Below are positions 1 through 7,225 of a DNA stretch of 7,832 bases, piece after piece (position 1 is the first letter of the stretch; each line of letters begins with the position of its first letter). Position numbers and translations under genes: made by a program. Origin of the DNA: an uncultured bacterium (GTDB lineage Bacteria; CALINM01); assembly GCA_938045315.1 (NCBI GenBank), contig CALINM010000115.1, positions 1 to 7,832 of the forward strand. Reading direction: 5' to 3'. Under the pieces are notes generated by a model. It was not told the DNA's origin and made no database searches. It saw only the letters and a program-made list of their open reading frames with translations.

Positions 1-789
1 TTTTTTGTTTTTCTTCAATTACTCTTTTTTCAACCTGATCTTTTATTTTTTCAAAAGGTTTGTATTTAGCTTCTCTTTTCTCCTCTAGTTTTATTATATG
101 TATTCCAAAATTGGTTTGAATTGGCCCGCTTATTTCACCCACTTTCATTGAAAATACAGCTTCTTCAAAGGTTTTTACCATCCTACCCCTACCAAAAAAT
201 CCAAGATCACCACCTCTTGATTTTGTACCGGGGTCATCGGAGTGTATCTTAGCCATCTTTGAAAAATCTGCTCCATCTTTTAATAACTTAATTATACTTT
301 CAGCTCTCTCTATGATTTTTCTCTTTTCCTCTTCAGCAGCATTTTGTTGCAGTCTAAGGAGAATATGCCTTGCTCTAACCTGTTCAGGAACATCTATAAA
401 TTCATCTAAATGAGTATCATAATAATTTTTTAGTTCCCCTTCATGGGAAGAAACTTTTTTTATAACCTCTTCTTTTAAAAATAATGAGGTTACGAAATGT
501 TCCTCTGATAGTTTAACCTGTTCCTTAATTTCCTTTTTTCTAAAAATTTTTTTCATCAGCAATTTTATAAATAAGATTATTTGCTACAATTTGCTTTAAA
601 ACCATCAGTTTCATCTGAGGATTTTGTTTAATTGCCTGTTTCTTCCCGGTTTAATTATATTCAATTATTCTACTTAGATCCTCTTCTGTAATTATTAAAT
701 CTCCTGCTTTAGCTAACTTTTTACCTTCTTTTGCATAACTTACTGAGAGACAAAAAATAATTAACATAGCAGCTAGAATTTTTTTTCAT
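1..789 (-). pseudogene. Parvulin-type peptidyl-prolyl cis-trans isomerase (SurA/PrsA-like), disrupted N-terminus, 3' end outside window
   Basis: Extracytoplasmic proline isomerase/chaperone of the rotamase (PpiC) family. From base 556 down to 1 the frame is open for 185 codons and shows a parvulin domain (about bases 379-83). It has the RARHILLRL strand, the SDDPGTKSRGGDLGFFGRG segment and a closing GIHIIKLEEK, followed by a basic helical tail. Upstream the gene is broken. ATG at 789 is followed by a run of eight A (786-779); removing one A gives a good signal peptide, MKKILAAMLIIFCLSVSYA. That frame continues as KLAKAGDLIITEEDLSRIIEYN and hits TAA at 653-651. It then resumes in the same frame (KKQAIKQNPQMKLMVLKQ) until a run of seven A (553-547), where one base too many shifts the frame into the parvulin part. 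The lesions are either real decay, homopolymer sequencing errors or slippage sites. The in-frame ATG at 556 has no Shine-Dalgarno and would give a cytoplasmic fragment. Confidence 0.8.
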
Positions 790-811
790 TTCCACACCCC
801 TTTCACTTCAT

Positions 812-2172: not shown

Positions 2173-2592
2173 ATGCAAGCATTTTTCGAAACATTTGATA
2201 CCACAGGTGATGTGGGTTTAAATGTATATGGTAAAACCCTTGAAAACATCTTTCAACAGGCCGCAATTGGCCTGTTTTCTCTTATAACCGATATAAAAAA
2301 TATGGAAATCAATGCAACTAAAAAGATTAAGATCAGGGCAGATGATTATGAAAGTCTTTTAATAAACTGGCTGAACGAATTAGTTTTCCTCTTTGATTCA
2401 GAAGGTTTTATTGGGAAGAGAGTAAAAATATTGGAGCTAACAGAAAAAAAATTGATTGCCCTAATCGATGGGGATTTTTTTGATGAAAAAAAGCATTCTA
2501 AGGGGGTCTTGATTAAAGCTGCAACTTACCATAAACTTAAATTAGAAAGAAAAAATACAGGATGGAAAGCAACCATACTTTTTGACATTTAA
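2173..2592 (+). CDS. Archease, RtcB-activating protein
   Basis: Small metal-binding cofactor that speeds guanylylation and turnover of the RNA ligase RtcB and widens its nucleotide use. The 139 residues match the family's usual length. Visible blocks are GDVGLNVYGKTLENIF (12-27), with the conserved metal-site Asp at 13, the central LLINWLNELVFLFD (62-75), IKAATYH (114-120) and a C-terminal ILFDI with Asp138. The usual HTAD motif reads TTGD here, so the family His is a Thr while the Asp is kept. An in-frame TGA at 2161 rules out a longer product, so ATG 2173 is the first possible start. No Shine-Dalgarno precedes it, and translation probably relies on ribosomes finishing the upstream gene 22 bases away. 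It ends 9 bases before the preferred rtcB start, so the two are surely co-expressed. A GC-rich hairpin lies at codons 28-35. Confidence 0.9.
   Translation: MQAFFETFDTTGDVGLNVYGKTLENIFQQAAIGLFSLITDIKNMEINATKKIKIRADDYESLLINWLNELVFLFDSEGFIGKRVKILELTEKKLIALIDGDFFDEKKHSKGVLIKAATYHKLKLERKNTGWKATILFDI
2255..2280 (+). terminator. Terminator-like hairpin inside the archease gene
   Basis: AACAGGCC (2255-2262) pairs perfectly with GGCCTGTT (2269-2276) around the six-base loop GCAATT, and TTCTCTT follows. The stem has 8 bp, unusually GC-rich at its top for this AT-rich DNA, and the U-rich 3' side resembles a Rho-independent terminator. It lies inside codons 28-37 of archease (QQAAIGLFSL), on the sense strand. 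It could act as a premature terminator or attenuator, an RNA-stability element, or be chance. Translating ribosomes would normally prevent it forming. Confidence 0.4.
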
Positions 2593-2601
2593 AGGATGAT
2601 T

Positions 2602-4038
2602 ATGAATATAAGGAGAATCGATAAATATCGTATAGAAGTTCCAATAGGATATGTGGATGGTATGAGAGTACCTGGAATTATTTACATTGATGAAATCTTG
2701 GAAAAATATTTAGAAGAGGATGCAATAAGGCAGGTAGCGAATGTAGCGACATTACCAGGGATTATCAAGGCATCATATGCAATGCCAGACATACATACCG
2801 GATATGGTTTTGCGATTGGTGGAGTTGCAGCTTTTGATTTAGAAGATGGTGTTGTATCTCCCGGAGGTGTTGGATACGATATTAATTGTGGAGTTAGACT
2901 TGTAAGGAGTAATCTTGTTAAGGAAGAGGTAATCCCTAAAATAAGAACACTTGTTGAGGTTTTATCATATGAAATTCCATCAGGTGTTGGTTCTAAAGGC
3001 AAATTAAAACTCTCTAAAAACGATGAAAGACAACTTATGTTAAAAGGTGCTAAATGGGCAGTAGAGAATGGATTTGGTGAAGAAGATGACTTATTGCATA
3101 CAGAATCTGGGGGCTATTTAGAAGATGCAGATCCTTCTCTAATCAGTGAAAAAGCATATGAAAGGGGAAGGTCACAGCAAGGAACACTTGGTTCTGGAAA
3201 CCATTTCCTCGAAATTCAGTATGTTGAAGAAATTTATGACAAAAAAGCTGCAGATGCACTCGGGCTATTTCCTGATCAAGTAACAGTTATGATACACACC
3301 GGTTCTCGGGGATTTGGACATCAAATATGTACAGACTTTATCGAAATTATGGCAAGAGCAGTTAAAAAATACAATATTTTTTTACCAGACAGAGAACTGG
3401 CATGTGCCCCCATAAAAAGCGAAGAAGCAAGACAGTATATCGCTGCCATGAAAGCAGCTGCAAATTATGCATGGGCTAACAGGCAATGCATAATGCACTG
3501 GACAAGAGAGTCCTTTATGAAGGTTTTTGAAATGTCACCAAGGGATTTGGGCATGAAGTTAATCTATGATGTGGCTCACAATATTGCCAAAGTGGAAGAA
3601 CATATAATTGATGGAAAAAAAATTAAGGCTATAGTTCATAGAAAAGGTGCAACCAGGGCTTTTCCACCGGGACATCCAGAACTTCCCGAAATATATAAAA
3701 ATATTGGACAACCCGTATTAATACCAGGAGATATGGGAAGGGCTTCTTATGTTCTCTTAGGTACCAAAGAAGGCATGGAAGAATCTTTTGGTTCCACATG
3801 CCATGGAGCGGGAAGAGTACTATCAAGACATCAAGCAATTAGACAAGCTAAAGGAAGATCAATAAAAAAGGAATTGGAAGATGAGGGAATCATAGTAAAA
3901 AGTGCAGGTAGAGAAACACTTGCTGAGGAGATGTCTGAAGCTTATAAAGACATAAATAATGTAGTAGAAGTTGTTGCTAATGCAAAGATTTCAAAGAAAG
4001 TTGCCAGGTTAAGACCCTTAGGAGTGATTAAAGGATAA
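2602..4038 (+). CDS. rtcB: RNA-splicing/repair ligase RtcB (GTP and Mn2+ dependent)
   Basis: Joins RNA 3'-phosphate or 2',3'-cyclic-phosphate ends to 5'-OH ends through a GMP-histidine intermediate, in RNA repair or tRNA healing. The full-length ~480-residue form resembles archaeal RtcB rather than the shorter E. coli type. Counting from the ATG at 2602 (478 aa), the metal ligands are Cys96 (DINCGVR), His201 (GSGNHF), His232 (MIHTGSRGFGH) and His326 (DVAHN). The guanylylated histidine is His401 in STCHGAGR. The protein ends with the characteristic VARLRPLGVIKG. An ATG two codons earlier (2596) touches the AAAGG sequence directly, whereas AAAGGA lies five bases before 2602, so 2602 is preferred. 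All catalytic residues are present and no intein interrupts it. It is coupled to archease, its known partner. The stop codon abuts the gltX stop on the other strand. Confidence 0.97.
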   Translation: MNIRRIDKYRIEVPIGYVDGMRVPGIIYIDEILEKYLEEDAIRQVANVATLPGIIKASYAMPDIHTGYGFAIGGVAAFDLEDGVVSPGGVGYDINCGVRLVRSNLVKEEVIPKIRTLVEVLSYEIPSGVGSKGKLKLSKNDERQLMLKGAKWAVENGFGEEDDLLHTESGGYLEDADPSLISEKAYERGRSQQGTLGSGNHFLEIQYVEEIYDKKAADALGLFPDQVTVMIHTGSRGFGHQICTDFIEIMARAVKKYNIFLPDRELACAPIKSEEARQYIAAMKAAANYAWANRQCIMHWTRESFMKVFEMSPRDLGMKLIYDVAHNIAKVEEHIIDGKKIKAIVHRKGATRAFPPGHPELPEIYKNIGQPVLIPGDMGRASYVLLGTKEGMEESFGSTCHGAGRVLSRHQAIRQAKGRSIKKELEDEGIIVKSAGRETLAEEMSEAYKDINNVVEVVANAKISKKVARLRPLGVIKG

Positions 4039-5495: not shown

Positions 5496-6569
5496 TCAAT
5501 CCTGATAGGTCTCGTAAATTTCATTGAATATATAAGAAATTTTTTCAAAGATATGTAAAATTTCAGGATCGAAATGGGACGGTAATGTTCTACCATCACC
5601 TTTCAGAATAATTTCACAGGCTTGTTTATGATCATACCCCTTCTTATATGGTCTATCACTTCTTAATGCGTCATACTGGTCGCAAAGAATCAAAATCCTG
5701 CCTTCTACAGGAATCTCTTTACCTTTAAGCCCCCTTGGATAACCAGTGCCATCAAATCTTTCGTGATGATTTAATGCAATTGACTCAGCAAGCATAATCT
5801 GGGGAAATGTTGAACCAGAAAGAATATTTGCACCTATTATTGTATGATTCTTCATAATTTCAAATTCTTCTTGAGTGAGCCGCCCTGGCTTTAAAAGTAT
5901 GGCATCAGAAATTCCTACCTTACCAATATCATGCATTGGCGCAGCAATTTCAATGTTTTCAACAAATTTGTTATTAAACCCTAATTCCTTTGCAATAACA
6001 CTTGCATAAAGTCCCATTCTTTTTATATGCATACCCGTATCATCATCTCTATACTCAGCTGCAATAGTTAGTCGTTTTATCATCTCTGAACTTGCATATT
6101 TAAGCATATCCAGAGCCTCTTCTAACTCCCTGGTCCTTTGATAAATTGTCTTTTCAAGTACCTTTTTATAATTTTTTTCCATAAGAATCAGCTGTCTGTA
6201 TTTTGCAGCTTTTTTCAAAGCATATATAAGTTGCTCTGGCTTATACGGTTTAATTATAAAATCGTAAGCCCCTTTCTTTATTGCCTCAACTGCCACATCA
6301 ATTTCTGCATACGCAGTCATTAGTACAACTGGCACATCGGGGTCTAAAGTATGGATTCTACTTAAAAGTTCAATCCCATCAACTTTTGGCATTCTTATAT
6401 CCGTCAATACAATGTCGAATTTATCTGTTAAAAATCTGTTATATGCTTCGTCACCACCTAAACAACTTACAACATTAAATCCATTGGCAATTAATAAAGA
6501 AGAAGCGGCTTCCAAAGAATAAAGATCATCATCAACAACTAAAACTCTTAATTCTTGCACATCATTCAT
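5496..6569 (-). CDS. Response regulator with HD-GYP domain (predicted cyclic-di-GMP phosphodiesterase)
   Basis: Two-component output protein of the RpfG type, 357 residues, predicted to hydrolyse cyclic-di-GMP when its receiver is phosphorylated. The receiver (about 8-122) has the acidic pocket Asp13-Asp15, phosphoacceptor Asp57 (LTDIRMP), Thr85 and Lys107 (FIIKPY). A charged helical linker (about 125-165) probably forms a coiled coil. The HD-GYP domain (about 165-345) has RDDDTGMH (174-181), MHDIGK with His213-Asp214, His242, [13 protein letters not shown] with His268-His269 and the GYP signature at 276-278, then [13 protein letters not shown]. All metal-site positions look intact. No histidine kinase is adjacent, so it is an orphan here. 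Its ATG overlaps by four bases (ATGA) the terminal TGA of the small upstream frame. Its own AAAGGA lies about 15 bases upstream, too far to be good, which suggests translational coupling. Confidence 0.93.
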
Positions 6570-6721
6570 TCTTGTTTATTACTATCCTTTTTCTCTTTAT
6601 CACATCGTGACCCGATGTCTGGATCATAGCCTCAACCCCTTATACCTAACCTTGGGAAAATAACTTTCAACAGGACAATCCAAACTACAAATAAAAATAA
6701 TAAAAAAATTAAACTTCTCAC
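6566..6721 (-). CDS. Small single-pass membrane protein, candidate selenoprotein with in-frame TGA at codon 30
   Basis: I do not recognise the family. The frame opens with GTG at 6721 behind AAGGAGGG. It encodes [20 protein letters not shown], one hydrophobic helix (residues about 3-22), then IFPRLGIRG and TGA at 6634-6632. If TGA is read through, the product is 51 residues with Sec30 and a hydrophilic tail, [20 protein letters not shown] plus E. It contains Cys40 and ends in TGA at 6568-6566, overlapping the next gene as ATGA. A SECIS-like hairpin follows the codon-30 TGA. The alternatives are a 29-residue peptide ending at that TGA (which would resemble short hydrophobic type I toxin-like peptides), or a Cys codon mutated or misread. 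TGA ends trmL and the HD-GYP gene, so a recoded genome is excluded. The ORF start is well supported; readthrough is inferred. Confidence 0.55.
6602..6634 (-). promoter_or_regulatory. Candidate bacterial SECIS element (UGA plus hairpin)
   Basis: After the in-frame UGA (6634-6632) come 13 bases, then ACAUCG (6618-6613), loop GGUCA (6612-6608) and CGAUGU (6607-6602). The stem is a perfect 6 bp, and an extra AUC/GAU pairing is possible below a three-base bulge. UGA to apical loop is 19 nt. As I recall, bacterial SECIS elements need a loop about 16-37 nt from UGA with a G in the first two loop positions, and the E. coli fdhF loop carries GGUC. All of these are met. The hairpin could instead be a DNA operator, since it is a perfect inverted repeat; no U tract follows, so it is not a terminator. 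Confidence 0.5.
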
Positions 6722-6724
6722 AAA

Positions 6725-6732
6725 CCCTCCTT
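6725..6732 (-). promoter_or_regulatory. Strong ribosome-binding site of the small ORF
   Basis: The minus strand reads AAGGAGGG and then three bases before GTG at 6721. It is the strongest Shine-Dalgarno match in the right half of the window. It sits where no longer gene begins, which is the main evidence that the tiny GTG frame is really translated. Confidence 0.7.
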
Positions 6733-6741
6733 GTTTTTCAC

Positions 6742-6769
6742 ATTATATAAAAAATATCAATACAGCCAA
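6742..6769 (-). promoter_or_regulatory. Likely promoter of the small ORF and HD-GYP gene
   Basis: Reading the minus strand just after the trmL stop, TTGGCT (6769-6764) and a perfect TATAAT (6747-6742) are 16 bp apart. The expected start point is about 6735, leaving a leader of only some 14 bases that is nearly all ribosome-binding site. This would make the small ORF, the regulator and perhaps gltX a unit separable from trmL. Confidence 0.5.
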
Positions 6770-6772
6770 ATA

Positions 6773-7225
6773 TCAAAATCCCTCAATCTGTCTTATGCTC
6801 TCATAAACCACTATAGCTACAGAATTAGCAAGATTCAAGCACCTAACAGGACCAAACATGGGTATTGTAAAAATTTTATCCGAAAACCTATGATAAATTA
6901 TATCAGGAAACCCTTTTGTTTCTGAACCAAAAATGAGCCAGTCTTTCTTTTCATATTTTATAGAAGTATAGGTTTTTTGCCCCTTAGAAGAGAAAAAATA
7001 AAAATTACCCTCTAAATTTGATATAAACTCTTCTAAGGAATCATAAATAAAAAGTTTTAAGTATCGCCAATAATCTAGACCTGCTCTTTTAAGATGCTTG
7101 TCACTTATTGAAAAACCAAGTGGTCTAACAAGATGCAATTCACAATTAGTTGCTACACAAAGTCTTGCAATGTTTCCAGTATTCTGTGGTATATCTGGAT
7201 GAATTAATACAACCCTCATTGACAT
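6773..7225 (-). CDS. trmL: tRNA (cytidine/uridine-34-2'-O)-methyltransferase TrmL
   Basis: SPOUT-fold enzyme using S-adenosylmethionine to methylate the 2'-O of the wobble base of tRNA-Leu isoacceptors. At 150 residues it is close to E. coli TrmL. It has the family's blocks: IPQNTGNIARLC (12-23), RPLGFSISDKHLKRAGLDYW (34-53), FGSETKGFP (99-107) and the knotted C-terminal cofactor site, IPM followed by RCLNLANSVAIVVYE (128-142). The usual RS(L/M)NLSN motif is RCLNLAN here, a mild change. ATG 7225 or ATG 7219 (two codons later) could start it; AGGA lies about 12 bases before the first. It follows the DUF362 gene by 41 bases and may share its transcript. The tRNA target is inferred from the family. 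Confidence 0.92.
   Translation of the reverse strand: MSMRVVLIHPDIPQNTGNIARLCVATNCELHLVRPLGFSISDKHLKRAGLDYWRYLKLFIYDSLEEFISNLEGNFYFFSSKGQKTYTSIKYEKKDWLIFGSETKGFPDIIYHRFSDKIFTIPMFGPVRCLNLANSVAIVVYESIRQIEGF

Follow-up and report, generated by a model that had tools for sequence, protein, structure and literature searches.

The question raised by this locus is whether a short reading frame in the window (the whole 7,832-nt stretch of DNA analyzed), interrupted by an in-frame TGA, ends at that codon as a small membrane peptide or continues through it as a selenoprotein, and what role the product of such a gene might have. The frame comprises 51 codons and a stop (6566-6721, minus strand), with a GTG start at 6721-6719, a coding segment from 6721 to 6569 and a final TGA at 6568-6566. 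Within it a TGA at 6634-6632 forms codon 30, followed by a Cys codon at position 40. The first-pass annotation had described this GTG frame, its codon-30 TGA and the open frame beyond, without giving a strand; translation confirms all three features and places them on the minus strand. The ribosome-binding site that it had reported is the Shine-Dalgarno sequence GGAGGG at 6725-6730, located 3 nt before the GTG. A promoter-like pair, TTGGCT-16-TATAAT, is likewise present (6742-6769), but it is a consensus match only, with 4 such sites in the region against 1.6 in shuffled sequences. The proposed transmembrane helix ahead of the TGA corresponds to a hydrophobic stretch at residues 2-21 (6659-6718), which AlphaFold2, run on two sequences, models as a helix (block pLDDT 84-86 in the window protein) followed by a tail of low confidence. 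The hydrophilic tail (6569-6631), which includes Cys40, is followed by a gene for a response regulator combining receiver and HD-GYP domains (5496-6569, minus strand; named by eye), and the stop of the short frame overlaps the ATG of this gene exactly, in an ATGA at 6569-6566. The sister species G001 has the same next gene, as well as the same upstream neighbor, a SpoU/TrmL-like RNA methyltransferase (6773-7225, minus strand; named by eye), but its short frame ends in TAA, and the overlap to which the first-pass annotation had drawn attention is lost.

When 60 genomes were searched at the protein level with translation continued past stops, the frame was recovered with a single in-frame TGA in the same genus, in the same family and in unrelated lineages. 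Profile searches then detected this family in 53 of the 82 genomes of one phylum (E below 1e-3) and, after improvement of the profile, in 43 genomes of a domain-wide sample of 386, or approximately one in ten. The members share a common layout, namely the helix, a motif approximating (I/V/F)(L/F)P(K/R)(L/M/F)G(V/I)xTU(M/L)SxxC, and a hydrophilic tail of at least 14 residues. In the 94 distinct members the codon at the Sec position is TGA in 91, and TGC, CGA and TAA in one each. The three exceptions are L182 of genome G101, with a Cys codon (TGC), L169 of G328, with an Arg codon (CGA) and a short tail, and L191 of G114, with TAA; all three genomes are selA-positive. The TGA and the tail beyond it are conserved in 91 members from many families, with a single Cys form, and the homologs do not stop at codon 30. 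Recurrence of the TGA in independent genomes eliminates a sequencing error, which had been raised as an alternative. A variant code in which TGA specifies another standard residue is also unlikely, as the neighboring genes are called normally with translation table 11. Genome G434 carries two copies of the family (L179 and L180) on different contigs, both with the TGA.

Selection on the protein downstream of the TGA, which had been suggested as a check, is apparent in the codon changes between the window and the sister species: over the first 11 codons of the tail, 3 changes are synonymous and none is nonsynonymous. The comparison with the next genus gives a pN/pS of 0.25. Beyond the first 11 or so residues the tail is weakly conserved. 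A Cys is present within 14 residues after the Sec position in 85 of the 94 members, at +5 in 70 of them and at +10 in the window protein, and none of the members has a Cys in the 25 residues before it.

The genome of the window contains a complete complement of the machinery that the first-pass annotation had listed for verification: selA (SelA match, E 5e-129), selB (358 bits against a cut-off of 242), tRNA-Sec (70 bits against a 47-bit cut-off) and selD (L104, contig C10:29515-30420). The latter gene itself has one in-frame TGA, suggesting that SelD is probably a selenoprotein in this organism. Across the sampled genomes, selA is present in 171 of the 386, and 42 of the 43 carriers of the family are selA-positive, an association that is strong both overall (Fisher p 1.6e-15) and upon exclusion of the window's own taxonomic family (1.7e-14). 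Roughly one in four of the selA-positive genomes in the sample (42/171) accordingly carries the family. The sole selA-negative carrier among the 43, G418, is an 82% complete genome, and given that only this one of the 215 selA-less genomes carries the family, Cys versions in organisms that do not use selenium are essentially absent. Of the 82 genomes in the phylum of G047, 63 have selA, and the carriers G116, G132 and G138 there gave no selA match.

A further line of evidence is the hairpin downstream of the TGA. In the window this element (6602-6618, minus strand), ACAUCG-GGUCA-CGAUGU, lies 19 nt after the UGA and has a 6-bp stem, the loop GGUCA at 6608-6612 and an energy of -8.7 kcal/mol. 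It conforms to the bSECIS model of PMC13188914, namely a loop of 3-9 nt with a G in its first two positions, a stem of 4-16 bp, a location 16-37 nt after the UGA and an energy of at most -7.5, in keeping with the SECIS-like hairpin at an appropriate distance that had been predicted. Its folding energy by itself is unremarkable (z -1.1) and is uninformative alone, so that the case is carried by the alignment and the family statistics. In the next genus the stem reads ACGCUG/CAGUGU, which differs from the window stem by two compensatory changes and one G-U pair; the shuffle control for this covariation, with its three sequences, is a weak one (51/500), but none of the slid controls shows a two-sided change. 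Hairpins that conform to the bSECIS model follow the TGA in 68 of the 91 TGA-containing members, compared with 26% of the 3598 control TGAs drawn from those same loci (p 1e-21), a roughly 3-fold enrichment, although the pass rate of the control TGAs means that the filter is not specific by itself. G002 has a stem that is conserved by eye and yet does not pass the automated filter. The apical loop is in range in 89 members, with G in the first two loop positions in 78 of these 89. The region after the TGA in the 91 members is also more structured than its synonymous recodings (mean z -1.09, SE 0.10), whereas two upstream control windows give z values of -0.50 and -0.20 in the same test.

Judged from these sequence features, the window gene is almost certainly a genuine selenoprotein gene, in which UGA30 would be decoded as Sec by SelB under the guidance of the bSECIS hairpin just downstream, a step that is computationally well supported. 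An ordinary 29-residue membrane peptide with a chance open frame beyond its stop, to which the standard meaning of TGA and the at least 14 open codons that follow some 54% of TGAs taken at random from these loci might point, has a negligible probability in view of the use of TGA rather than TAA or TAG in nearly all members, the conserved (M/L)SxxC tail, the G101 member in which Cys replaces the TGA and the frame reads straight through, and the near-complete restriction of the family to selA-positive genomes. The status of the family as selenoproteins is therefore close to certain computationally, and it is the biochemistry that we infer below.

The first-pass annotation had been unable to match the architecture to a known bacterial selenoprotein family, and this holds for the sources searched. 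Ten members tested against the Pfam and NCBIfam models gave no credible match above cut-off, a search of solved structures with the family profile revealed no relative, and a plasmid collection yielded no match. In the 119-family inventory of prokaryotic selenoproteins of 2026 (PMC13188914), no entry of Table 1 could be matched to the layout or the TU(M/L)SxxC motif. In the open literature the motif returns chance letter matches only, and nothing corresponding was found among small bacterial membrane selenoproteins. As far as could be searched, the family thus appears to be undescribed in the open literature, Pfam, NCBIfam and the above inventory, and its layout of one helix with a Sec tail of at least 14 residues was not encountered in the bacterial catalog. 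Families in the same inventory, such as the FmdB family UxxU, UXX-star and SelW-like, resemble it in the in-frame UGA, the bSECIS and the shared machinery, and many of them also have a U...C arrangement (PMC13188914).

A probable reason for its having been overlooked lies in the manner in which selenoproteins are usually found, namely by pairing a UGA with a Cys-containing relative and by gene calls of ordinary length; the family suits neither approach and apparently escapes such pipelines despite its prevalence among selenium users. The near-absence of Cys forms would keep it hidden from searches for Cys/Sec pairs, and its near-exclusive use of Sec fits the caveat in PMC12013277 that the method used there may miss selenoproteins without Cys homologs. 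Glycine reductase selenoprotein A (GrdA) is named in that study as the one earlier case without such homologs. It resembles the present family in almost always containing Sec, with Cys forms nearly absent. GrdA is a soluble catalytic subunit, unrelated in sequence to the family. It also becomes testable whether bacterial genomes harbor further unnoticed short proteins of the Sec-only type.

The extent of this distribution and the identity of the operon partners both go beyond what had been noted from the window itself. A gene for an FmdB-type zinc ribbon (PF09723) lies no more than 400 nt from 42 of the 94 members, on the strand of the member itself and directly downstream in 41, and a search of 874 kb for the FmdB motif produced one further match only, which also adjoins a member. 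DUF6132 (PF19628) occurs near 22 of the 94, always on the same strand and directly upstream in 9, and a YgaP-like transmembrane protein (PF11127) is encoded upstream of the member in L153 and L163 (by eye) and L167 (by Pfam). The latter two are short membrane proteins like the members beside which they lie, but they lack Sec, differ in sequence and are neighbors rather than relatives. Other neighbors include a thioredoxin, a PDO/Thioredoxin_3 protein, a DUF255-like thioredoxin, a Trx/Grx-like protein and OsmC with DUF1858. Neighbor names were established with Pfam for one representative each, and by eye, motif or BLAST clustering for the rest. The neighboring genes differ between lineages, and those of the window gene, the TrmL-like methyltransferase and the HD-GYP regulator, give no redox hint, with no FmdB beside the gene. 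At locus L219 of the window genome (contig C154, 1429-3119, minus strand), genes for an RND pump, a YgaP-like transmembrane protein and one of the FmdB proteins of this genome stand in a row (by eye); the order of RND pump and YgaP-like gene is the arrangement in which L153 and L163, from other species, place the selenoprotein gene.

This genomic context bears on the possibility that the frame is a selenium-sensing leader, in which readthrough or termination at the UGA tunes translation of the downstream gene (FmdB, or the HD-GYP regulator in the window), with little activity residing in the peptide. A short frame that many genomes place close to the next gene, or in overlap with it, is consistent with such a device, and in the window translational coupling could proceed through the ATGA; nevertheless, conservation of amino acids on both sides of the UGA, the variation of the downstream gene by lineage, the Cys-for-UGA member and the loss of the overlap in the sister species together render it improbable.

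Instead, we favor the view that the gene encodes a functional Sec-containing membrane microprotein of an uncataloged, widespread family, acting as a tethered relay of selenol and thiol chemistry, and assign this statement as a whole a probability of about 0.6. The location of Sec right after the membrane, the usual presence of a downstream Cys and the thioredoxin-fold neighbors suggest a tethered selenol. The single helix would anchor the protein in the inner membrane, with the short tail probably facing the cytoplasm according to the positive-inside rule, as suggested by the charge bias (K/R 1.59 against D/E 0.02 in the juxtamembrane segment; K/R 0.45 against D/E 1.02 in the N-terminal flank), although an Arg at the N terminus of the window protein counts against a charge-based topology. 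In most members Sec and the downstream Cys could form a reversible selenenylsulfide in the tail; the nine members with no Cys within 14 residues of Sec indicate that this bond is not universal, and they would need an external thiol. The Sec might reduce membrane partners, or take up sulfane sulfur from them, and could be recycled by cytoplasmic thioredoxin- or glutaredoxin-type proteins. The FmdB zinc ribbon, DUF6132 and the small YgaP-like membrane proteins may take part in the relay, as hinted at by their proximity, and the family thereby offers a lead to the function of these three obscure neighbors. On the evidence of gene neighborhood, a redox-relay role is somewhat favored over other functions.

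Two other functions for the encoded protein can be envisaged, both of them unlikely to a similar degree. In the first, the Sec/Cys tail would hold a soft metal or metalloid (As, Hg, Cu or Zn) at the membrane, in partnership with an ArsR regulator and the FmdB zinc ribbon, a notion that accommodates the ArsR-family genes near seven members, immediately upstream in two, and the RND-pump genes near four loci. Set against it are the presence of one Cys only near the Sec, with none in the above nine members, and the thioredoxin-fold, OsmC and YgaP-like neighbors, which indicate thiol or sulfur redox chemistry. Moreover, regulators of the ArsR family respond to reactive sulfur too, as exemplified by BigR and SqrR. 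In the second, the protein would be a small subunit with an accessory or assembly role in a larger membrane complex, for instance an RND pump, a c554-type cytochrome or a complex of cytochrome c maturation, and Sec would serve as its redox switch. The genes for c554-type multihaem cytochromes downstream of the members in L147 and L183, with a similar one in L182, and the RND genes upstream in L148, L153, L163 and L181 could be interpreted in this manner, but no single large partner recurs across lineages.

Viewed more broadly, the tethered relay might have a wider significance: this almost exclusively Sec-containing family could represent a core, overlooked part of bacterial selenium use, supplying a selenol for thiol or reactive-sulfur redox chemistry together with FmdB and thioredoxin-fold partners, and constituting an independently arisen counterpart of the SelK/SelS layout, a proposal to which we give slightly less than an even chance. 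SELENOK and SELENOS have one N-terminal transmembrane helix and Sec in a short tail. The faint resemblance to these proteins pointed out in the first-pass annotation stands as regards layout, with a single N-terminal helix (predicted here) and Sec in a hydrophilic, probably cytosolic tail, but the SECIS is of the bacterial type, a hairpin inside the reading frame, whereas that of SELENOK and SELENOS lies in the 3' UTR. Furthermore, their Sec is near the C terminus, in contrast to its position directly after the helix in the PxLGxxTU motif of the present family. The likeness is one of layout only, and the profile search of solved structures gave no hint of a sequence relation.

Elsewhere in the window, the N-terminal end of a gene for a PpiC/SurA-like peptidyl-prolyl isomerase (1-790, minus strand) is spread over more than one frame, the corresponding region of the sister species being in one frame. 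This may reflect decay of the gene or assembly indels, and the contig may thus carry indel errors, by which the TGA of the selenoprotein gene is untouched. On the plus strand, two adjacent genes at 2173-4038, encoding proteins of 139 and 480 aa, are by eye archease-like and RtcB RNA ligase-like, respectively.
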